A DNA stretch of 64,000 nt, taken from contig JAPZRU010000002.1 of the NCBI GenBank assembly GCA_027531255.1, positions 1-64,000 on the forward strand, in the 5' to 3' direction. The translations under genes and the position numbers were made by a program. The notes beneath the pieces were generated by a model, which saw only the letters and a list, made by a program, of their open reading frames with translations, did no database searches and was not told the DNA's origin. Every line of letters starts with the position of its first letter. The first letter of the stretch is position 1. Below, one piece after another: positions 32,372 to 53,391 of the stretch. This DNA is from Steroidobacteraceae bacterium (lineage in GTDB: Bacteria; Pseudomonadota; Gammaproteobacteria; Steroidobacterales; Steroidobacteraceae).

Positions 32372-32848
32372 TCAGGCGGCGACCGAGGTCTCGTCCGCGA
32401 TCAGCGCCTCGAGGTATTCGAGGTCCGGCACGAGGGGCGCCTCGTTCACCATCCGCAGGCTGCAGAGCGCCGGGCTGCGCTCGGGGAACGAGCGCACCGG
32501 GTCGGGCTTCACGACGTCGGGATTGAGCCGCACGAGCTGCGGGAAGCCCTGGGTCAGCACGCCGAAGCAGCCGGCGGGCAGCCGCGTGCCGAGGCAGTGG
32601 AACACGACGATGCGCGTGCGCCCGCCCGCCTCCGGAATCGCCTGCCCGAGCGTGCCCTCGAACGAGATCACGGGGATCGAGCGGCCGTTCCAAGGGACCG
32701 TGCCCGCGTACCACGACGGCGCGCCCGGCATCGCCTCGGGCGGCTGCCACGCCACGACTTCCGCGACGCAGGCGCGCGGCACGATCAGCCGCTCGCCGGC
32801 CAGCGGCACCAGCAGCCCGTAGAGGTCGTCGCCGTCGTCCGCGGCCAC
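32372..32848 (-). CDS. chpC: CheW-like adaptor ChpC of the Pil-Chp system
   Basis: A 158-residue CheW-domain protein; start is a GTG at 32848, overlapping the chpA TAG by one base. The SH3-like CheW fold is indicated by LYGLLVPLAGERLIVPRACVAEVV, WYAGTVPWNGRSIPVISFEGTLG and RIVVFHCLGTRLPAGCFGVLTQGFPQLVRL. It is the last gene of the pil-chp operon, the position of chpC in Pseudomonas, where it is an accessory adaptor. A REP-like arm follows its stop. Confidence 0.85.
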   Translation of the reverse strand: MAADDGDDLYGLLVPLAGERLIVPRACVAEVVAWQPPEAMPGAPSWYAGTVPWNGRSIPVISFEGTLGQAIPEAGGRTRIVVFHCLGTRLPAGCFGVLTQGFPQLVRLNPDVVKPDPVRSFPERSPALCSLRMVNEAPLVPDLEYLEALIADETSVAA

Positions 32849-35800
32849 TAGATCGCCTCCGGCACACGGTCGCGCCGCGCGTTCACCAGCGGCTCGATCG
32901 CATCGAGCAGCTGGTTCTCCTGGTACGGCTTGCCGAGGTAGTCGTCCACGCCGAGTTCGATCGCGCGCGCACGGTGCTTCTCGCCCTGGCGTGACGTGAT
33001 CATCACGATCGGCACGTGCTTCAGCCGCGGTTCGCCGCGCACGTGCGCCGCGAGCTCGTAGCCGTCCATCCGCGGCATCTCGATGTCGAGCAGGATCACG
33101 TCGGGAACGTGCTCCTGCAGGATCGCGACCGCGTCGACGCCGTCCTTCGCCGTCATCACGCGCATGCCGTTGCGTTCCAGCAGGCGCTGCGTCACGCGGC
33201 GCACCGTGATGGAGTCGTCGACGACCAGCGCGAACGTGCGGCGGTCGGCGCGCTCGCGGGCGGCGTCCGGGGGCGCCGGGCGCAGGCGCCAGTCCGTACG
33301 CACCAGCGAGCCCATGTCGAGGATGACGACGATGCGGCCGTCACCTAGGATCGTCGCGCCCGAGATGCCGCGGATGCCGGCGATCTGCGGACCGACGCTC
33401 TTGACGACGATCTCGCGCGAGCCGACGAGTTCGTCGGCGACGAGCGCGGTCGAACTCTCGCCGGCGCGGATCAGCACGACCGGCACCGGCACTTCCTGCT
33501 CCGGCAGCTGCGACGGCTGGCCGCCGACGAACAGCCCGAGATGCTGGAACCGGTAGCGCTGCCCGCCGTACTCGTAGGTGGCCGTCTCCTGGGCGAGGTG
33601 CTTCAGGACGTCGGCCTTCGGCAGGCGCACGACGCCCTCGACGGTCGGCAGCGGCAGCGCGTACATCTCGTCGCCGGTGCGCACGATCAGCGCCTGCGAG
33701 ATCGCAAGCGTGAACGGCAGCCGGATGGTGAAGCGCGTGCCCTTGCCCTGCGTCGTCTCCATGTGCAGCGCGCCGCCGAGCTTCTTGATCTCGGTGGCGA
33801 CCACGTCCATGCCGACGCCGCGGCCCGCGGCCTGGCTGATCGTCTGCGCGGTCGAGAAGCCGGGCTCGAGGATCAGCTGCATCGCCTCTTCGTCGGAGAG
33901 CGTCTGCTTCGGCTCGAGCATGCCGAGCGACACGGCCTTGGCGCGGATCGCGCGCACGTCGATGCCGTTGCCGTCGTCCGCGACGACGATCACGACCTCG
34001 GCGCCCTCGCGCTTCAGCTGCACGTCGATGCGACCACCGGGCGCCTTGCCCCGCGCGACGCGCTCGGCCGGCGCTTCGATGCCGTGCACGACGGCGTTGC
34101 GCAGCATGTGCTCGAACGGCGGCAGCATGCGTTCGAGCACCTGCCGGTCGAGCTCGCCTGACGCGCCGGAGACGTTGAGCTCCACCTGCTTGCCGGTCTC
34201 GTTCGCGACCTGGCGGACGATGCGCGTCAGGCGTTGCACGTGCCGCGAGAACGGCACCATGCGCGTGCGCATCAGCCCGTTCTGGAGGTCGGTGACGACG
34301 CGCGCCTGCTGCATCAGCAGGTTCTGCGCCTCGCGCGTGAGGCTGTCGAGCAGGCCCTGCACGCTCGCGACGTCGGACGTCGACTCGGCCAGCGCGCGCG
34401 AGTACTGCTGCAGCGCGCTGTACTGGTCGAGCTCGAGCGGGTCGAAGTCCTCGCGGCGGCGGCTCTCGCCGTGCTTGTGGAGGATCTGCGCCTCGGTCTG
34501 GAGTTCGAGGTTGCGCAGCTGGTCCTTGAGGCGCTGCACGACGCGGGACAGTTCGGAGAGGTTGAACTCGACCGACGACAGCTGCTGCTCGAGGCGCGCG
34601 CGGAAGATGCTGACCTCGCCCGCACTGTTCAACAGGCTGTCGAGCAGTTCGGCATCGACGCGCGCCAGCTCCTGGCGCTCGGGCGCCGGCGGCGGCTCCC
34701 GGCCGGGCGGCAGCACGAACGACCGCGACTGCTCCGGCGCCCCGACGACGGCCGGCTCGGGCGCCTCGTCCGCGACCGGCGGCACCCGGGTCGGTGGCAT
34801 GGACGTGCACGCGGTGTCGTCGTAGGTCGGTGCCTCCGCCGCGAGCGCAGCCGCCGCGGGCTCCGCGGCGGGCGGTTCCACCGGCGGCTCGGCTGCATGC
34901 GCGAAGGCCGCGGCGACCGGCGCTTCCTCGGCAGCGGCGGTGAGATCGAAGTCGAGCGCGGTGTCCGAGAGGTCCAAGTCGAGGACGGCTTCCGGCTGAT
35001 CGGGACCCTCGTCCGGTGCGCGCATCGCGAGCGCGTCGTCGGCAGGCGGGGTCGGTGCGGCGGGCGTGCCGGTGACCGGAGACTCGTCCGCGACCGGAGG
35101 CGCCTCCGGCGGCTGGCGGAAGCGGCCGGTCGCGGCGATGTCCTTGACGACCGGCAACTCGACGGCCGGCGGCGCGGGGGTGGGTGTCGCCGGCGCCGGG
35201 GCCGGTGCCGCAGCGGGCGTCGGCAGCGGCTGCTCGGGCGCGACGGTCCTCAGTACCGGTGGCCCGGCCGGACGGTACAGCGAGCGGATCCGCGTGATCA
35301 GGTCGCGAGCCGGCACCACCGGACGTCCGGCGGCCACCGTCTCGCGCATCCGGTGCAGTTCGTCGAGGCTCGCCTGGAGCACGTCGAGCGTGCGCGGCTC
35401 GGACGTGGTGCGCGCGGTCTCGGTCTGGATCAGCAGCGACTCCAGTTCGTGCGCGAGGTCGCCCATCGCGGTGACGCCGGCCATCCGCGCGCCGCCCTTC
35501 AGCGTGTGCAGCACGCGCTTCAGTTCGGTGATGCGGCCTTCGTCGGCGGCGTCGTCGCGGTACGCAGCCAGCGCGGCGTCAGCGAGTTCGAGGAGCTCGG
35601 TGGCCTCCTCGCTGAAGATCATCGCGATCTCGGGATCGTAAGGCTCCGCCTCGGCAGGCGGCGCCGCGACCGACGCGGCCGGTGCGAGCGCGGGCGCAGG
35701 CGCGGCGGGTGCGGGCGGCGGCGCCTCGAGCATCGCGTCGACGTCGATCAGGTCGACTCCCGGTAGCGGCAGCGGGCCGGACTGCTCGGCTGGGTCGATG

Positions 35801-38748
35801 GGGCGCAGGCCACGACGCTGGATCTCGCGATTCGCGTCGCCGTCGAGCCAGGCGAGGCGCGTCAGCAGTTCGTCGTGCGCCGGGAAGCGCGCTTCCGGGT
35901 CCTCGATGCGCGCGACGATCTCGTCCATCGCCACCATCGCGTCCGCGAGCACGCGCTTGCCGGCCTCGGACAAGCCGAGGCCGTGGTCGTGCAGCTTGCG
36001 CACGTACAGGTTCAGCGGCTCGGCGACCCGGATGCCCGCCTCGGCTTCCGCCATCTTCGAGGCACCGGCGAGCGTGTGGCACGCGCGGTGCAACTGTTCG
36101 TTGACGGGGAACGGCGGGAAACGCCCGTCGCACTCGGCCAGCCACGCGCGCACGGCGGCGACGTGGCTCCCGACTTCCTTGCGGTAGATGTCGATCAGCA
36201 CCGGGTCGCTGCCGGCCGGCGCGCCGAGCTCGGGACGGTTCATCACGAACTCGCTGCCCGACGGCGGGGGCGGCGGCGGATTCGCCGAGCGGCGCCGCTC
36301 GTCCTCGTCCGGACGGGGTTGGTCGACGACGCGGACGAAGCGCGTCGGCGGCTCGAGCACCGGCGACGCGCCGTCGGCCGCGGCCGGCGGCACCGGCTTC
36401 GGCAGCGCCGGATCGCTCGACAGCAGGTCCTCCGTCGCGATCAGCGACGTTTCCTCCGACGTCGAGGGCGGCGGCGCGGCCACGGTGGCCGGCGCGTCGG
36501 GCACCTTGCGCGCCGCCACCGCCTCCTGGGGCGCGACGTCGACGGCCTGGGCCTGCGCCGGGTCGCGGCCTTCGGCCAGCGCCTGCGCGCGGCCGATCAG
36601 CAGGCCGACGGCCGCGCTCGGCGTGCGTCCGGATTCGAGCTCGTCGACGAGTTGCGGCAGCGTGGCGACCGCGGCCCGGAGCAGGTCGAGCAGCGCCGGC
36701 CCGCGGGCCAGCGTGCCGCTGATCACGCGATTCAGCAGGTTCTCGATGCTCCACGCGAACTCGCCGACGACCCGCGCGCCGACCATGCGGCCGCTGCCCT
36801 TCAGCGTGTGGAACGACCGGCGCACGCGAACGAGCGAGTCCTGGTCGAGCGGGTTCTCGTCCCACATCGGGAGGTACCGCTCGATCTTCGCGAGCTCCTC
36901 GCGCGCTTCCTCGACGAACAGCGTCACGAGCTCCGGGTCGAGCGCGGGTCCCGCGGCCGGCGCGGACGCAGCCGGCGGATCCAGCTTCAGCGTCTTCGCG
37001 TAGACGCCGGTGTCGCCACTGGCCGGAGCGGAATCCGTCGGCAACGCGAGCGCGTCGGGCGCGCCGAGCGCGCGCAGGCAGCTCTCGGCGTTGTCGAGCA
37101 TGTACCAGGGATCGCTGCGACCGCTCTGCAGCGTCTCCATGTAGTACTCGATCGACACGATCGCGTCGGCGAGGCGGTCGAGCCGACCCGGGTTCAGGCG
37201 CGCGTTCGGCCGCAGCACGTCCTCGACGTGCCGCGCGATGCCTTCCATGATCTCGACCGCGCGCGAGCGGCCGAGCATCAGCAGGCCCGCGGTCAGGCCG
37301 CGCAGCAGCTGCGGCACCTGGTCGGCGCCGGTGAGTTCCCGCCGGCCGACGATGGCGGCGATCGTCTCCTTGATGCGCGCGAGGTTGACGATGCACTCGC
37401 GCAGCGCGGCCTCCTGCACCTGGCGGAAGTCGCCGTCTTCCTCGACGGCATCCGGCACGGGGCCGCCGTGCGCCTGCGGCATGATCAGGCGCACCAGCTG
37501 CGAGTCGAGGCTGTCCTCGACGGCGATCAGCGTCGCGGCCACCTCGACCAGCACGCCGTCGGAAGGCGCGGCGCGGCGCGCGACGACCTCCTGCAGCCTG
37601 GCGATCTGGCCCTGTACCTTCTGCCGCAGGTGGCCGAGGCCGAGCACGCCGAGCGTGTCGGCGATCTTGCGCAGCATGTCGAGCTGCGTGCTCAGCTCCT
37701 CGACCTGCGCGCCACCCTTGCGGACGAAGATGTCCAGCACGTCCTTGACGCGCGAGAGGTCTTCCTTGATGGCGGCCGCGACGGTCTGCATCAGCCTGAC
37801 CGACGGCGCCGACAGGCTCTCGCGCTCCTGCTCGACCTGCTCCGAGACCGGCAGCAGCTCCTGCAGCTTGAACGAGGCGCGGACCGAGGCGACGCGCGGC
37901 CCGTTCGTGGTGGCGCGCGCGACGTAGTACAGCAGGTTGTTCAGCAGGTCGAGGGGCGGGATCTCGGCATAGCGCGCCTCGCCGGTCTCGTAGAGCCGCT
38001 TGAGCTCGCGGTCGGCCTGGCCGAGCAGGCGCTTGACGGTCTGCGTGCCGTCGAGACCGCCTTCGCGGAGCGCCTCGACGATGCTGCCGACCACCCACCA
38101 CAGCTGGAACACCGGCTGGCGGGTCGCGACCTGCTCGAGGTGCTCGGCGACCGCGCTCAGGATCTCGAGGTGCTGCGCGGCCCGCTCGCCCTTGATCCAG
38201 CCGAGCAGGCCGACCTGATAGCGCGGGCGCAGCCGGCGCGCCCACTGCGCGACGTTCAGCGGCGGCTCGCCGGGTTGCGGCGGCACCGGTTGCGGCTGGC
38301 GGTCGGACGTCAGGTTCAGCAGCAGCAGCGTGCCTTCGCTGAGCAGCGCCTGGCCGCGCACCGCGCGGAGATCGTTCAGCAGCGGCAGCAGCACGAGCGC
38401 GAGGTCGCGACCACCGCCGAGCACGCGCTCGAGGTATGCGGGCAGCTGCACCATCGAGCGCATGAGCGCGTCGAGGCCCTCGGCGCTCGCACCGGCCGTC
38501 GGGCGTTCCTCGGCGTCGAGCAGGAAACGCGCGACCTGCTCCATCTCCTCGGCCAGGAGCGCGGCGCCGTACACCTCGACGACGCGCAGGACCCCGTGCA
38601 CCTCGTGCAGGCGGTCCGCGCAGACGGCGAGCGCGGCGGGGTCGTCCGGCCGCTCGGCGTAGGCCTCGAGCGACTGCCGGGCCTCGCCGAGCGTGAGACC
38701 CAGTTCCTTCGCGACGACGTGGAGCGTCTGCTGGGCGACGTCGGCCAT
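32848..38748 (-). CDS. chpA: Hybrid chemotaxis histidine kinase ChpA (PilL)
   Basis: A 1966-residue CheA-type kinase controlling type IV pili. The N-terminal 600 residues are helical, with a degenerate Hpt-like site near residue 46 (DRLHEVHGVLRVV). Three Hpt domains follow: FHTLKGSGRMVG (~644), HTLAGASKMAEA (~891) and HTLKGGARMAGV (~1079). A long Pro/Ala linker leads to the dimer/ATPase region: NAVVHGIEAP (~1548), DDGNGID (~1592), GRGVGMDVV. A CheW domain covers ~1683-1806. A receiver ends the protein, with phospho-acceptor near D1888 in LLDIEMPRMDG. Pseudomonas ChpA is larger, with more transfer sites. The start is the ATG at 38748, 8 bp after pilJ. Confidence 0.93.
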   Translation of the reverse strand: MADVAQQTLHVVAKELGLTLGEARQSLEAYAERPDDPAALAVCADRLHEVHGVLRVVEVYGAALLAEEMEQVARFLLDAEERPTAGASAEGLDALMRSMVQLPAYLERVLGGGRDLALVLLPLLNDLRAVRGQALLSEGTLLLLNLTSDRQPQPVPPQPGEPPLNVAQWARRLRPRYQVGLLGWIKGERAAQHLEILSAVAEHLEQVATRQPVFQLWWVVGSIVEALREGGLDGTQTVKRLLGQADRELKRLYETGEARYAEIPPLDLLNNLLYYVARATTNGPRVASVRASFKLQELLPVSEQVEQERESLSAPSVRLMQTVAAAIKEDLSRVKDVLDIFVRKGGAQVEELSTQLDMLRKIADTLGVLGLGHLRQKVQGQIARLQEVVARRAAPSDGVLVEVAATLIAVEDSLDSQLVRLIMPQAHGGPVPDAVEEDGDFRQVQEAALRECIVNLARIKETIAAIVGRRELTGADQVPQLLRGLTAGLLMLGRSRAVEIMEGIARHVEDVLRPNARLNPGRLDRLADAIVSIEYYMETLQSGRSDPWYMLDNAESCLRALGAPDALALPTDSAPASGDTGVYAKTLKLDPPAASAPAAGPALDPELVTLFVEEAREELAKIERYLPMWDENPLDQDSLVRVRRSFHTLKGSGRMVGARVVGEFAWSIENLLNRVISGTLARGPALLDLLRAAVATLPQLVDELESGRTPSAAVGLLIGRAQALAEGRDPAQAQAVDVAPQEAVAARKVPDAPATVAAPPPSTSEETSLIATEDLLSSDPALPKPVPPAAADGASPVLEPPTRFVRVVDQPRPDEDERRRSANPPPPPPSGSEFVMNRPELGAPAGSDPVLIDIYRKEVGSHVAAVRAWLAECDGRFPPFPVNEQLHRACHTLAGASKMAEAEAGIRVAEPLNLYVRKLHDHGLGLSEAGKRVLADAMVAMDEIVARIEDPEARFPAHDELLTRLAWLDGDANREIQRRGLRPIDPAEQSGPLPLPGVDLIDVDAMLEAPPPAPAAPAPALAPAASVAAPPAEAEPYDPEIAMIFSEEATELLELADAALAAYRDDAADEGRITELKRVLHTLKGGARMAGVTAMGDLAHELESLLIQTETARTTSEPRTLDVLQASLDELHRMRETVAAGRPVVPARDLITRIRSLYRPAGPPVLRTVAPEQPLPTPAAAPAPAPATPTPAPPAVELPVVKDIAATGRFRQPPEAPPVADESPVTGTPAAPTPPADDALAMRAPDEGPDQPEAVLDLDLSDTALDFDLTAAAEEAPVAAAFAHAAEPPVEPPAAEPAAAALAAEAPTYDDTACTSMPPTRVPPVADEAPEPAVVGAPEQSRSFVLPPGREPPPAPERQELARVDAELLDSLLNSAGEVSIFRARLEQQLSSVEFNLSELSRVVQRLKDQLRNLELQTEAQILHKHGESRRREDFDPLELDQYSALQQYSRALAESTSDVASVQGLLDSLTREAQNLLMQQARVVTDLQNGLMRTRMVPFSRHVQRLTRIVRQVANETGKQVELNVSGASGELDRQVLERMLPPFEHMLRNAVVHGIEAPAERVARGKAPGGRIDVQLKREGAEVVIVVADDGNGIDVRAIRAKAVSLGMLEPKQTLSDEEAMQLILEPGFSTAQTISQAAGRGVGMDVVATEIKKLGGALHMETTQGKGTRFTIRLPFTLAISQALIVRTGDEMYALPLPTVEGVVRLPKADVLKHLAQETATYEYGGQRYRFQHLGLFVGGQPSQLPEQEVPVPVVLIRAGESSTALVADELVGSREIVVKSVGPQIAGIRGISGATILGDGRIVVILDMGSLVRTDWRLRPAPPDAARERADRRTFALVVDDSITVRRVTQRLLERNGMRVMTAKDGVDAVAILQEHVPDVILLDIEMPRMDGYELAAHVRGEPRLKHVPIVMITSRQGEKHRARAIELGVDDYLGKPYQENQLLDAIEPLVNARRDRVPEAI

Positions 38749-38756
38749 GATGGCTC

Positions 38757-40142
38757 TCAGGCCTTCGCTCCGCCGGCCTGGCGGGCGGGCTTGGGCGCGG
38801 CCGGCGACGCCTTCGGCTCGGCGCCGTCGGCGGCACCGGGACCCGGAACCACGAGCTTCACGGCCTTGAGCTTCTGCTGGATCGCGGCACCGGCGCCCTC
38901 GGGGAGACGGAAGCCGGCGACGGACTTGCGCAGCTGCGCCGAGAGGTCGGCGAGCTTGCCGATCGACTGCGACATGCCGGTCGTGCCCTCGGCCGTCTGC
39001 GTCGAGATCTCGCGCAGCACCTGCATGTTCCTGGAGATGTTCGCGGACACCGCGGCCTGCTGCCGGGCGCTCGCGCTGATGTTCTGCACGAGGCTCGCGA
39101 TCTGGTTCGAGACCTGCTCGATCTCCTCGAGCGCGGCGCCGGCGTTCTCGGCCAGCAGCGCGCCACCGACCACGTCGGTGGTGCTGCGCTCCATCGAGAC
39201 GACCGCCTCGTTGGTGTCGGCCTGGATGGTGCGGACCAGCACCTCGATCTGCTTGGTGGCGTTCGCCGCGCGCTCCGCGAGCCGCTGCACTTCGTCCGCG
39301 ACCACCGCGAAGCCGCGGCCGGCCTCGCCGGCCATCGAGGCCTGGATCGAGGCGTTCAGCGCGAGGATGTTGGTCTGCTCGGCGATGTCGTTGATCAGTT
39401 CGACGATGTTGCCGATTTCCTGCGAGCTCTCGCCGAGGCGCTTGATGCGCTTCGAGGTCTCCTGGATCGTCTCGCGGATCGCGTTCATGCCGTCGATCGT
39501 GCGGCGCACCGCGTCGCCGCCCTTGTGCGCGATGTCCACCGAGTGGCGCGCGACGTCGGAGGCGCGCTCCGCGTTGCCGGACACCTCCTCGATCGAGACC
39601 GCCATCTCGGCGACGCTCTCGGTCGCGGAAGCGACCTGCTTCGACTGGCCGGCGGACGCCCGGGCGAGGTGGGCTGCGGCGGCCTGCGTGGACTTCGCCG
39701 CGGCGTCGAGCGAGATCGCGCTCTCGTTGATCGTGGTGACCAGTTCGCGCAGCGCCTCGATCGCGTAGTTGATCGAGTCCGCGATCGCGCCGGTGATGTC
39801 CTCGGTGACGGTGGCCTGCACCGTCAGGTCGCCGTCGGCGAGGCTCGAGAGCTCGTCGAGGAGGCGCAGGATGGCCTCCTGGTTGCGCGCGTTCTGCCGC
39901 GCCTGCTGCTCGGCGGCGGCGCGCAGCGTCGCGCCCTTGGCGTAGGCGCCCCACGCGACGCCGACGGCGCCGAGCGCCACGAGGAGCGGGACCAGCGCGA
40001 GCCACGGGCTGGCGAGCGGCCCTTCGATGCCGAGACCGGCCAGCACGAGCGGCCCGACCGCGAGCGCACCCGCGACCAGCGCGATGACCAGCAGCGAGGG
40101 CAGGCGGCTGGCCGCCTTCTGGTTGTCGTTGTTCGGTTCCAT
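38757..40142 (-). CDS. pilJ: Methyl-accepting chemotaxis protein PilJ, lacking the periplasmic domain
   Basis: A 461-residue receptor. Two hydrophobic helices (about residues 14-37 and 45-67) are separated by only about eight residues (IEGPLASP), so there is no periplasmic sensor; typical PilJ is near 680 residues with a roughly 280-residue PilJ domain. A HAMP-like segment (about 95-135, SLADGDLTVQATVTEDITGAI) and the signalling hairpin (about 243-290, NDIAEQTNILALNASIQASMAGEAGRGFAVVADEV) are intact. A Pro/Ala/Lys-rich tail ends it. It sits between pilI and chpA as usual, so identity is clear from context. Confidence 0.88.
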   Translation of the reverse strand: MEPNNDNQKAASRLPSLLVIALVAGALAVGPLVLAGLGIEGPLASPWLALVPLLVALGAVGVAWGAYAKGATLRAAAEQQARQNARNQEAILRLLDELSSLADGDLTVQATVTEDITGAIADSINYAIEALRELVTTINESAISLDAAAKSTQAAAAHLARASAGQSKQVASATESVAEMAVSIEEVSGNAERASDVARHSVDIAHKGGDAVRRTIDGMNAIRETIQETSKRIKRLGESSQEIGNIVELINDIAEQTNILALNASIQASMAGEAGRGFAVVADEVQRLAERAANATKQIEVLVRTIQADTNEAVVSMERSTTDVVGGALLAENAGAALEEIEQVSNQIASLVQNISASARQQAAVSANISRNMQVLREISTQTAEGTTGMSQSIGKLADLSAQLRKSVAGFRLPEGAGAAIQQKLKAVKLVVPGPGAADGAEPKASPAAPKPARQAGGAKA

Positions 40143-40175: not shown

Positions 40176-40736
40176 CTACGACGCCGCCTGCAGGAAACTC
40201 GGGCTCTCGACCAGCAGCTTCAGCGACAGGACCGGCCAGCTATCGTGGCTGCGCCGGAACGCGCCCGCGAGGTAGCGTTCGCAGCGCACCAGCGTCGGGG
40301 GCGGTTCGGGCTGGAATTCCGGGTCCGTGAAGCGGCGGAAGCCCAGCACTTCGTCCACGAGCAGTCCCGCGGGGATGTCGCGGTGGTTGACGACCAGCAC
40401 GCGCACGTTGCGCCCGGTGCTGGTCGCGCCGCTGCCGAGGTACTGGCGCAGGTCGATGATCGGCAGCAGCTGACCGCGGACGTTCGCGAGGCCGCGGATC
40501 CACGGACGCGCGCCGGGCACGCGGGTCAGGAACGACGGCAGCGCCATGATCTCGCGCGTTTCCTCGCGCGCGACCAGGAAGGTCTCGGCGCCGAGCCGGA
40601 ACGCGACCCCGACCCACTCGCGGCCGGCGGCCGATTCGCGGCCGCCGGCGACCGCACGGCCGCGGCGCTCGAGCTCGCGCAGGAGTTCGAACGGGCGGTC
40701 GCGGAGTTCGCGGAGGCTCGGGGCGGCGGCGGGCAT
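40176..40736 (-). CDS. pilI: CheW-like adaptor PilI
   Basis: A 186-residue CheW-domain scaffold that couples PilJ to the ChpA kinase. After a short helical N-terminus (LRELRDRPFELLRELERRG) the domain shows WVGVAFRLGAETFLVAREETREIM, WIRGLANVRGQLLPIIDLRQYLG and VRVLVVNHRDIPAGLLVDEVLGFRRF, the canonical CheW strands. It is the third gene in pilG-pilH-pilI-pilJ. Confidence 0.92.
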   Translation of the reverse strand: MPAAAPSLRELRDRPFELLRELERRGRAVAGGRESAAGREWVGVAFRLGAETFLVAREETREIMALPSFLTRVPGARPWIRGLANVRGQLLPIIDLRQYLGSGATSTGRNVRVLVVNHRDIPAGLLVDEVLGFRRFTDPEFQPEPPPTLVRCERYLAGAFRRSHDSWPVLSLKLLVESPSFLQAAS

Positions 40737-40754: not shown

Positions 40755-41120
40755 CTAGCCCGCGAGGGCGGCCTGCGCCTTCTCGACCAGCTTCTCGGGC
40801 GTCACCGGCTTGACGAGGTAGTCCACCGCGCCCTGGCGCATGCCCCAGATGCGGTCGGTCTCCTGCGACTTGCTGGTGACCAGGATCACCGGGATGCGCT
40901 TGGTCTCGGGATCGTTCGCGAGCTGGCGCGTGGCCTGGAACCCGTTCACGCCCGGCATCACGATGTCCATGAGGATCAGGTCCGGCTTCATCTGCCGCGC
41001 GAGGCGGATGCCCTCGGCGCCGTCGCCGGCCGCCGCGGTCTGGTAGCCGTGCTTCTCGAGCGCCTTCCGGATGACGTGCACTTCGGTCGGCGAGTCGTCG
41101 ACGATCAGGATCAGTGCCAC
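40755..41120 (-). CDS. pilH: Twitching motility response regulator PilH
   Basis: A 121-residue single receiver domain. Start is GTG at 41120 (MALILIVDDSPTEVHVIRKALEKHG). The acidic pocket (DD), phospho-acceptor D in DLILMDIVMPGVNGFQ, the switch Thr/Ser in PVILVTSKSQETD and the Lys in DYLVKPVTPEKL are all present. It has no output domain. In Pseudomonas PilH opposes or tunes PilG output to favour retraction. It lies 12 bp downstream of pilG. Confidence 0.93.
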   Translation of the reverse strand: MALILIVDDSPTEVHVIRKALEKHGYQTAAAGDGAEGIRLARQMKPDLILMDIVMPGVNGFQATRQLANDPETKRIPVILVTSKSQETDRIWGMRQGAVDYLVKPVTPEKLVEKAQAALAG

Positions 41121-41132
41121 GGCCGGGACCTC

Positions 41133-41558
41133 TCAGCTCTGGCGGGCCGCGCCCGCGCCCACGTGCTGCTCGATGGCGGAGAGCAGCTCGTCGCGGGTGA
41201 ACGGCTTCGTGAGGTAGTGCTCGGAACCGACGATGCGGCCGCGCGCGCGGTCGAACAGTCCGTCCTTCGACGACAGCATGATCACCGGGATCGAGCGGAA
41301 GACCTTGTTGTGCTTGATCAGCGAGCAGGTCTGGTAGCCGTCGAGCCGCGGCATCATGATGTCGACGAACACGACGTCGGGCTGGTGATCCGCGATCTTG
41401 GACAGCGCGTCGAAGCCGTCAACGGCGGTGTAGACCTCGCAGCCCTCCTTCGACAGCAGCGTCTCCGCCGTGCGGCGGATCGTCTTGCTGTCGTCGATCA
41501 CGAGGACCTTGAGGCCGGCCAGCCGGGACTTCGGAGCCGCCTGTACTGCGTTTTCCAT
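41133..41558 (-). CDS. pilG: Twitching motility response regulator PilG
   Basis: A 141-residue single-domain receiver, first gene of the pil-chp operon. I chose the ATG at 41558 (MENAVQAAPKSRLAGLKVLVIDDSKTIRRTAETLL), with AGGTG six bases upstream; the frame extends further without similarity. The phospho-acceptor lies in DVVFVDIMMPRLDGYQT, with PVIMLSSKDGLFDRARGRIVGSEHYLTKPFTRDEL after it. The insertion DGLFDRARGRIVGSE is characteristic of PilG. It diverges from gshB. Confidence 0.93.
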   Translation of the reverse strand: MENAVQAAPKSRLAGLKVLVIDDSKTIRRTAETLLSKEGCEVYTAVDGFDALSKIADHQPDVVFVDIMMPRLDGYQTCSLIKHNKVFRSIPVIMLSSKDGLFDRARGRIVGSEHYLTKPFTRDELLSAIEQHVGAGAARQS

Positions 41559-41825
41559 CGCGTGCACCTGGACCGCCCGGCGCGGAGCGCCAAGCTTCGG
41601 CGTTTTAACATATCGAGCCCCGAACGACCACGCGGCCGCTTGGACGCCCGTCACAGAAATCCGTAACCCTCCGCGCACTTCCGGCGGCCCGTCCGCCCGG
41701 AGGCGCGCCGGCCCGGCGCCCTGCCGGTCGGCCCTCGGATGTAACATGCCGGGCCGTAGCCGCGTGGGTGAACGGCATCACGCTTTCGGATATCGACCGC
41801 CCGCCGCCGAACTGTTGGAGACCCG

Positions 41826-51167: not shown

Positions 51168-52308
51168 GGCTCTCTTCCACGATGCGCAGCGAGCTCGCCT
51201 GCTCGTGCGACAGCTTGTCCTCGCGCTTGCTCTCGAGCTTCACGCGCAGGCGCAGCTCGTTCTTCGAATCCGCGTTGCGCAGCGCTTCCTCGTACGAGAT
51301 CAGGTGCGACTCGTGGAGCTCGTACAGCGCCTGGTCGAAGGTCCTCATGCCGAGCCCGTTCGAGCGCGCCATGACTTCCTTGATCTGGGCGACATCGCCC
51401 TTGAAGATCAGGTCGGCGATCAGCGGGCTGTGCAGCATGATCTCCATCGCGGCGATGCGGCCGCCGCCCGCCTCGCGCGGGATCAGCCGCTGCGAGATCA
51501 GCGCCTGGATGTTCAGCGACAGGTCCATGAGGAGCTGCTCGCGCTTCTCCTCCGGGAAGAAGTTGATGATGCGGTCGAGCGCCTGGTTGGCGCTGTTCGC
51601 GTGCAGCGTGGCGAGCACGAGGTGTCCCGTTTCGGCGAACTGGATGCCGTACTCCATCGTCTCGCGGTCCCGGATCTCGCCGATCAGGATCACGTCCGGC
51701 GCCTGGCGCAGCGTGTTCTTGAGCGCCGCGTGCCAGCTGTCGGTGTCGACGCCGACCTCGCGGTGCGTGACCACGCAGCCCTTGTGGTTGTGCACGTACT
51801 CGACCGGATCCTCGATCGTGACGATGTGGCCGCGGGTCTTCTCGTTGCGGTAGTCCACCATGGCCGCGAGCGTCGTGCTCTTGCCGGAGCCGGTGCCGCC
51901 GACGACGATCACGAGCCCGCGCTTCGTCAGAACCACGTCGCGGAGGATCGGCGGCAGCTGGAGGTCGTCGATCGTCGGGATCCTGGCGTTGATCGTGCGG
52001 ATGACGCAGCCGGTGTGGTGCTGCTGCACGAACGCGCTGACGCGGAAGCGACCGATGCCCGGCGGCGCGATCGCGAAGTTGCACTCCTTGGTCGAGTCGA
52101 AGTCGCGCGTCTGCTTGTCGTTCATGATCGCACGGACGAGCGTGGCGCTCTGCTCGGGCGTCAGCGGCCGGTCGGTCTGCGGGCGGATCTCGCCGTCGAT
52201 CTTGATCGCGGGCGGGAACCCGGCCGTGACGAACAGGTCGGAAGCCTTGCGCTCGACCATGCGCCGCAGCAGGTCCTGCATCAGCTTGATGGCTTGATCG
52301 CGTTCCAC
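51151..52308 (-). CDS. pilU: Type IV pilus retraction ATPase PilU
   Basis: A 385-residue ATPase. PilU features include LLRRMVERKASDLFVTAGFPPAIKIDGEIRP, KECNFAIAPPGIGRFRVSAFVQQ, Walker A GGTGSGKSTTLAAMVDYRN, HIVTIEDPVEYVHNHKGCVVTHREVGVDTDSW, LRQAPDVILIGEIRDRETMEYGIQFAETGHLVLATLHANSANQALDRIINFFP and the LRLRVKLESKRED C-terminus. PilU works with PilT to retract pili under load. It lies 42 bp downstream of pilT and overlaps the third ATPase gene by 17 bp. Confidence 0.93.
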   Translation of the reverse strand: MERDQAIKLMQDLLRRMVERKASDLFVTAGFPPAIKIDGEIRPQTDRPLTPEQSATLVRAIMNDKQTRDFDSTKECNFAIAPPGIGRFRVSAFVQQHHTGCVIRTINARIPTIDDLQLPPILRDVVLTKRGLVIVVGGTGSGKSTTLAAMVDYRNEKTRGHIVTIEDPVEYVHNHKGCVVTHREVGVDTDSWHAALKNTLRQAPDVILIGEIRDRETMEYGIQFAETGHLVLATLHANSANQALDRIINFFPEEKREQLLMDLSLNIQALISQRLIPREAGGGRIAAMEIMLHSPLIADLIFKGDVAQIKEVMARSNGLGMRTFDQALYELHESHLISYEEALRNADSKNELRLRVKLESKREDKLSHEQASSLRIVEESHGKVF

Positions 52309-52350: not shown

Positions 52351-53391
52351 CTAGATCGAGTCCTTGTTCTGCGCCTTGTAGCGCGCCTCTTCCTTGCTGA
52401 CGACCCCCTTCGTGACCAGTTCCTGCAGGCACTGGTCCAGCGTCTGCATGCCGACCGCCTGGCCGGTCTGGATCGACGAGTACATCTGCGCGATCTTGCC
52501 CTCGCGGATCAGGTTCCGGATCGCGGGGGTGCCGATCATGATCTCGTGCGCGGCGGCGCGGCCGCCGCCGATGCGCTTCAGCAGCGCCTGGGAGATCACC
52601 GCGCGCAGCGACTCCGACAGCATCGAGCGCACCATCTCCTTCTCGGCCGCCGGGAACACGTCGACGATGCGGTCGATGGTCTTGGCGGCCGAACTGGTGT
52701 GCAGCGTGCCGAACACCAGGTGCCCGGTCTCGGCGGCGGTGAGCGCGAGGCGGATGGTCTCGAGGTCGCGCATCTCGCCGACCAGGACGATGTCCGGGTC
52801 CTCGCGGAGCGCGGAGCGCAGCGCCTCGGCAAAGCCGAGCGTGTCGCGGTGCACCTCGCGCTGGTTGATCAGGCAGCGGCGGCTCTCGTGCACGAACTCG
52901 ATCGGGTCCTCGATCGTGAGGATGTGGTCCGGACGGCTGTCGTTGCAGTGGTTGATCATGCCGGCGAGTGTCGTGCTCTTGCCGGAACCGGTCGGGCCGG
53001 TGACGAGCACCAGGCCGCGCGGCAGCATGCAGAGGTCCTTGAAGACCTTCGGCGCGTTCAGCTCGTCGAGCGACATCACCACGGAAGGGATGGTGCGGAA
53101 CACCGCGCCCGCGCCGCGGTTCTGGTTGAAGGCGTTGACGCGGAAGCGCGCGAGCTTCGGGATCTCGAAGGAGAAGTCGGTCTCGAAGAACTCCTCGTAC
53201 GCCTTCCGTTGCTTGTCATTCATGATGTCGTACACCATGCTGTGCACTTGCTTGTGCGACAGGGACGGCATGTTGATCCGCTTGACGTCGCCGTCGACGC
53301 GGATGAGCGGCGGCATGCCGGCGGACAGGTGCAGGTCCGAGGCGTTGTTCTTGACGGCGAACGCGAGCAGCTGGGCGATGTCGACGGCCAT
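52351..53391 (-). CDS. pilT: Type IV pilus retraction ATPase PilT
   Basis: A 346-residue ATPase that powers pilus retraction and twitching. I chose the ATG at 53391 (MAVDIAQLLAFAVKNNASDLHLSAGMPPLIRVDGD), preceded by GGGGA. Walker A is GPTGSGKSTTLAGMI, the Asp box ILTIEDPIEFVHESRRCLINQREVH, Walker B IVLVGEMRDLETIRLALTAAETGHLVFGTLHTSSAAKTIDRI, and the PilT-specific AIRNLIREGKIAQMYSSIQTGQAVGMQTLDQ motif is present. It is first in a pilT-pilU-pilU2 operon, divergent from yggS, the classic gammaproteobacterial arrangement. Confidence 0.96.
   Translation of the reverse strand: MAVDIAQLLAFAVKNNASDLHLSAGMPPLIRVDGDVKRINMPSLSHKQVHSMVYDIMNDKQRKAYEEFFETDFSFEIPKLARFRVNAFNQNRGAGAVFRTIPSVVMSLDELNAPKVFKDLCMLPRGLVLVTGPTGSGKSTTLAGMINHCNDSRPDHILTIEDPIEFVHESRRCLINQREVHRDTLGFAEALRSALREDPDIVLVGEMRDLETIRLALTAAETGHLVFGTLHTSSAAKTIDRIVDVFPAAEKEMVRSMLSESLRAVISQALLKRIGGGRAAAHEIMIGTPAIRNLIREGKIAQMYSSIQTGQAVGMQTLDQCLQELVTKGVVSKEEARYKAQNKDSI

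Follow-up and report, generated by a model that had tools for sequence, protein, structure and literature searches.

How can a Pil-Chp pathway operate when its chemoreceptor, PilJ, has no periplasmic domain with which to sense? This question is raised by a stretch of 64,000 nucleotides from a Steroidobacteraceae bacterium (contig JAPZRU010000002.1, positions 1 to 64,000; hereafter the window), in which pilJ encodes two membrane helices with almost nothing between them. The gene lies in an operon of ordinary Pil-Chp layout, pilG-pilH-pilI-pilJ-chpA-cheW, which places it in this system. The features of the locus are the following:

41133 to 41747, minus strand: pilG, response regulator (PF00072); open frame with a likely start near 41561; named by operon position
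40755 to 41120, minus strand: pilH, response regulator (PF00072); named by operon position
40176 to 40736, minus strand: pilI, CheW-like coupling protein (PF01584, E 2.6e-27), 33 nt before the pilJ start
38757 to 40142, minus strand: pilJ, chemoreceptor of the Pil-Chp system without a ligand-binding domain (LBD), 461 aa (frame, Pfam, hydropathy, AlphaFold2)
40038 to 40094, minus strand: first transmembrane helix, TM1 (hydropathy peak at residues 17-35; AlphaFold2 helix 5-36)
40002 to 40037, minus strand: the entire periplasmic link (residues 36-47 by hydropathy, 37-45 by AlphaFold2)
39945 to 40001, minus strand: second transmembrane helix, TM2 (hydropathy peak at residues 48-66)
39012 to 39560, minus strand: MCP signalling domain PF00015 (residues 195-377)
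32848 to 38700, minus strand: chpA, hybrid kinase with four Hpt stretches, HATPase, CheW and receiver (Pfam; start approximate), directly after pilJ
32372 to 32848, minus strand: second CheW-like gene (PF01584, E 2.1e-13) after chpA, in a ChpC-like position
51256 to 52281 and 52360 to 53379, minus strand: two pilT-family ATPase genes, so that pilus retraction genes are present

The pilJ frame begins with an ATG at 40142, ends with a stop at 38757 and is open throughout. Its transmembrane helices are 12 residues apart as judged by the hydropathy peaks and 9 residues apart in the AlphaFold2 model (single chain, 39-row alignment; mean pLDDT 79, pTM 0.39), in which helices 5-36 and 46-103 are followed by a long helical region. 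MCPsignal (PF00015, E 3.5e-42) was the sole Pfam match above cut-off. Orthology to full-length PilJ is supported by the identity of the signalling region, up to 90% to long-form relatives (L034), and by the same neighbouring genes. The protein keeps both membrane helices and the MCP signalling hairpin and lacks the PilJ/HBM-type periplasmic LBD, which makes it an LBD-less variant and not a standard PilJ. An earlier note on this DNA had described the gene in these terms, as a PilJ without its periplasmic domain, with nearly contiguous helices, an intact signalling hairpin and no lost piece or frameshift, and operon, sequence, hydropathy and AlphaFold2 agree with it on every count; the gap of only 33 nt between pilI and pilJ leaves no space for a missing N-terminal piece. 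Very long antisense frames, of up to 1297 aa, overlie chpA and pilJ (for example 35875-39768 on the plus strand); they are expected from the high G+C content and we do not regard them as genes.

The Pil-Chp genes of Pseudomonas aeruginosa are arranged as pilG-pilH-pilI-pilJ and chpA, and the window resembles that system in this order as well as in the two membrane helices and the signalling hairpin of PilJ. The two differ in the periplasmic LBD, present in P. aeruginosa PilJ and missing from the PilJ of the window, and in pilK, which is absent between pilJ and chpA in the window. Receptors in which an MCP signalling domain occurs without a large periplasmic LBD are known from FrzCD of Myxococcus, the HtrII transducers and the 'class III' receptors. 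These are separate receptor families, while PilJ orthologues with and without the LBD sit within one genus code. We found no report of a naturally LBD-less PilJ in the open-licence literature, a scope outside which most subscription papers fall. Receptors of this general kind are known elsewhere; the interest of LBD-less PilJ lies in its recurrence and in its standing as the sole detected receptor in many genomes.

The earlier note presented the architecture as a single oddity, a view that gave way when relatives were compared. We detected pilJ in 51 of 59 relatives searched (E<=1e-30) and in 257 of 311 genomes of its gammaproteobacterial order that are at least 85% complete (E<=1e-80). Together with the window, 120 loci chosen from among the matches listed made up a set of 121, picked to cover short frames as well as a range of long ones, so that the 57 short forms among the 121 orthologues do not represent a frequency. 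The stretch between the helices was bimodal, with 57 loci short (4-24 residues), 62 long and two intermediate (G209 and G059). Long forms have 229-267 residues between the helices where the hydropathy rule worked, and most long relatives have about 230-270. Seven length labels were assigned by hand where the rule failed or the length was in between (G209, G059, G044, G057, G313, G060 and G032); one of these, G060, is labelled long in the trees and has a reduced domain of ~165 residues, which brings the intermediates to three in all. The same architecture was seen in a named strain, Thioalkalivibrio sp. XN8 (L071), and orthologues with and without the LBD coexist within single genus codes (g7, g19, f7 g31 and f7 g67). 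Comparing PilJ length and helix spacing in relatives, as the earlier note had proposed, thus revealed a recurrent form and no sign of an assembly error.

Partly reduced periplasmic stretches of roughly 130-170 residues were observed in L224 (G059), L225 (G060), L215 (G209) and L315-L317 (G333, G464 and G558). Two families of the order are represented among them, as is one from outside; these are possibly intermediates or other domains. Record CALQLF020000066.1 (L057), which holds a short pilJ of the order, is titled Candidatus Planktophila lacus, an actinobacterial name, and the title is probably wrong.

To count how often the domain was lost we used a tree of genes that neighbour pilJ (PilG, PilH, PilI, GshB, YqgE, YqgF and PyrB), each of which lies beside it in 93 to 121 of the 121 loci, counts that are affected by the several loci that end at contig ends. 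The tree holds 119 rows, G034 and G300 being omitted for too little sequence. It gave 16 changes of the short label, at least 13 of them forced by supported branches, and 17 maximal short clades with a midpoint root; the window falls, together with g23 and g14, in a group of 13 rows that are all short. In a bootstrapped tree of 51 rows, G060 was treated as long and the other two intermediates (G209 and G059) were left out; this tree gave 14 changes (13-14 over the bootstrap trees), at least 12 of them forced. The tree of the PilJ signalling domain itself, in which 30 of 118 inner branches are well supported and rows mostly group by genus, gave 14 changes, at least 10 of them forced. All these counts cover changes in both directions, short to long and long to short. 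A single origin of the short form that then spread by transfer was rejected, as no fewer than 12-13 supported changes are required by the neighbour trees and no fewer than 10 by the signalling-domain tree.

The direction of change was read from the LBDs themselves. Of 58 splits in the tree of the LBDs of 61 long forms, 37 recur in the neighbour tree, where shuffling left a mean of 0.33. As the LBD tree largely follows the neighbour tree, the LBDs are taken to be homologous and the changes are read as losses; judging from these trees, the short PilJ looks like the product of repeated LBD loss in place. Regain of the LBD is disfavoured by the same agreement, even though family f1 and genus g7 are split in the LBD tree, and this splitting leaves room for some exchange of LBDs between lineages. 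In one close set, the short G163 and G170 compared with the long G006, both helices are closely alike on either side of the gap, which is a 690-nt in-frame deletion inside a direct repeat matching at 11 of 12 positions (found in 0.5-0.65% of random pairs); on the trees G163 and G170 may represent one loss event or two. No repeat was present at the deletion in the pairs G257/G259 and G298/G041, and deletion between short direct repeats was therefore discarded as a general cause.

The short protein also appears to be maintained. For the signalling region, within-genus pairs with dS 0.1-1.5 had a median dN/dS of 0.058 among short forms (162 pairs) and 0.047 among long ones (97 pairs), with maxima of 0.199 and 0.176, so that every pair lies below 0.2. 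By this sequence measure, the signalling half of short PilJ is under purifying selection. The setting of the gene is similar in the two forms: chpA starts at most 151 nt from pilJ in all 57 short loci and at most 232 nt away in 61 of 62 long loci, with median spacings of 71 nt and 75 nt, respectively.

With chpA starting so near pilJ, pilK does not fit between them. No pilK-sized gene can be accommodated there in 120 of the 121 loci (57 short, 61 long and 2 intermediate; the remaining long locus was left unassigned). Because the long-form relatives lack pilK as well, losing it does not account for the choice of lineages in which the LBD disappeared. In the wider class, pilJ was found in 188 of the 370 genomes searched; five of those listed belong to this order. 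From among the matches listed we took 96 loci that lie outside it: the top matches, 60 further down and, deliberately, those listed that looked short or intermediate (all but G652, which is cut by a contig end). All 43 loci with pilK have a full-length PilJ and none a reduced one, whereas the 51 loci without pilK comprise 42 full-length, six short and three intermediate forms (9 of 51 reduced). Two loci stand outside these counts, G358 (without pilK, at a contig end), which was not classed for length, and G638 (long), which is unclear for pilK; in the scoring of pilK, CheR was confirmed by Pfam in one locus and the others were scored by a profile of three such frames. The association between pilK and reduced PilJ outside the order gave a Fisher p of 0.0034 when kinship is ignored, the tree holding ~4 independent reductions, and a test on independent pairs gave no support, at most one of 10 pairs being informative, so that it has no power. 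These counts suggest, less firmly than the losses themselves, that the LBD is shed after PilK has gone, a non-adapting pathway then dropping its sensor.

What would a PilJ without its LBD do for the pathway? The reading that we favour, at a probability of about 0.6, is that LBD-less PilJ keeps the Pil-Chp core as a predicted regulator of the pilus without periplasmic chemosensing. The LBD would have been lost in place while both helices and the signalling hairpin were retained; at the membrane, the short protein would still link PilI with ChpA, and it would maintain a functional level of PilG and PilH output and with it of pilus activity; periplasmic chemical signals would no longer be read by it. 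The predicted working state is most likely that of a membrane-anchored coupling platform which keeps ChpA, PilG and PilH active without periplasmic ligands, and short PilJ may run simply at a set activity.

Engineered forms of P. aeruginosa PilJ provide a parallel. The LBD construct comprises residues 43-306 (PDB 8WDF; PMC12632253). A PilJ without residues 39-303 is stable and well expressed and gives twitching at the wild-type level (PMC10896506); movement is increased and earlier, and the directional response to Staphylococcus aureus products is nearly all lost (PMC10896506, PMC12632253). Removal of residues 74-273 or 80-273 nearly abolished twitching (PMC12632253, PMC10896506), so that loss of the LBD is not always harmless. 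In fly infection, an LBD-less PilJ fully rescued a pilJ mutant and the LBD alone rescued it mildly, and the same text cites work in which the periplasmic domain was dispensable for movement toward a phospholipid (PMC12552656). The deletion of residues 39-303, named PilJ deltaLBD1-2 (PMC10896506), has the same architecture as the natural short forms, with the helices and the cytoplasmic part kept. It is an engineered protein of one strain, described there as having lost chemotaxis, whereas the short PilJ is natural, recurrent, spread over whole clades and known here from its sequence.

Among the alternatives, the one that survives best is that short PilJ still senses, through its membrane helices, taking its input from the state of the membrane, from the pilin pool or pilus machinery, or from a partner membrane protein, as the two-helix transducer HtrII receives its signal from sensory rhodopsin. 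The retention of two helices and a tight hairpin in 57 short forms is in line with this possibility, as are the rescue of the infection phenotype by LBD-less PilJ and the suggestion of transmembrane or HAMP sensing, raised as a possibility in PMC12552656. However, the helices of short forms show no gain in conservation: at 80% identity of the signalling domain, likeness among short and among long forms was 0.34 and 0.33 for TM1 and 0.17 and 0.21 for TM2 (51 short and 49 long rows; the constant offset used for TM2 depresses both of its values). These figures lend no support to a new membrane sensor, and no partner gene for PilJ was recognised in the operon. We consider sensing of this kind rather unlikely. 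The earlier note had held that sensing must go by way of the membrane or the cytoplasm, or else that another protein must supply the input, and that necessity fell away, given these conservation values and the possibility of a set activity.

Input could also come from other chemoreceptors that form mixed arrays with short PilJ. More than one MCPsignal match was found in 26 of 41 short-form genomes, and the window's genome has at least one further strong match (C39, at a contig end) as well as weaker ones. Yet PilJ was the sole MCPsignal match at E<=1e-10 in 15 of the 41 short-form genomes, and likewise in 23 of 39 long-form genomes, and both CheB and CheR are missing from 13 of these 15 and 20 of these 23 genomes. 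With PilJ alone in 15 of 41, at this threshold and in these assemblies, mixed arrays are not the general answer and seem to us improbable; nor is input from another protein a necessity. The genome of the window does not belong to these 15, as it carries at least one further MCP-like frame. The MCPsignal matches of the window's genome at G000:C39:26669-27043, C26:5-124 and C37:5-124 all lie at contig ends, the last two scoring identically, which suggests that the assembly may break off at receptor genes. Near the pilJ locus of the window, no CheB gene turned up. A single frame of 1520 aa elsewhere in the genome carries both CheB and CheR matches (G000:C9:64857-66221) and is likely a CheB/CheR hybrid, similar ones being seen in several relatives. 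PilT family members were present in all 80 genomes searched. Neither PilY1 (28 of 41 short-form versus 29 of 39 long-form genomes) nor any genome-wide CheB (27 of 41 versus 19 of 39) differed clearly between the two forms, and a tie of LBD loss to either was set aside.

A sensor that was detached or duplicated, present elsewhere as a separate LBD protein or as a second full-length PilJ, is very improbable. The Pfam PilJ profile (PF13675) had no match in the window's genome; as it also misses the full-length relative G006, this negative is uninformative, and the profile was dropped in favour of one built from 42 related LBDs. With the latter we searched 80 genomes (57 short, three reduced and 20 long). 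At E<=0.01, 55 of the 57 short-form genomes, that of the window included, had no match, whereas 19 of the 20 long controls had one strong match, in pilJ. Eighteen of the 20 controls were themselves rows of the profile, and the remaining two gave one hit, in G313, and one miss, G057; none of the three reduced forms was found, so that the profile has limited sensitivity for LBDs that are diverged or partial. What speaks for a detached sensor is the weak matches in G034 (E 3e-4 and 1.7e-3) and G126 (E 3e-3), which lie on contigs other than that of pilJ, and the incompleteness of the assemblies. The searches that the earlier note had called for found neither a detached LBD protein nor a second full-length pilJ in the window's genome (40 contigs, 95.6% complete). 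That the short form is a misassembly or a pseudogene on its way out is hardly credible, since, although the titles of nearly all 80 named records call them metagenome bins, it occurs in many assemblies and in strain XN8, its frame is open, all 162 short pairs have dN/dS <0.2 and the spacing to chpA is kept.

The reading of short PilJ as a coupling platform for the pilus pathway can be extended to a wider proposal, which we put forward tentatively. The Pil-Chp core may need no extracellular sensor, the pilus machine being its main input via the membrane or cytoplasm, and the LBD may be an optional chemotaxis module that was shed repeatedly where PilK had been lost, leaving sole chemoreceptors without a sensor domain.

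According to the trees, nature has deleted the LBD some 12 or more times within a single order, and G163 and G170, both short, together with the long G006, form a very close natural set for comparison. The short-form lineages split chemosensing from core pilus control and thus allow a direct comparative test of the role of the receptor. Our results suggest that the control circuit of the pilus is able to run without an outside sensor.
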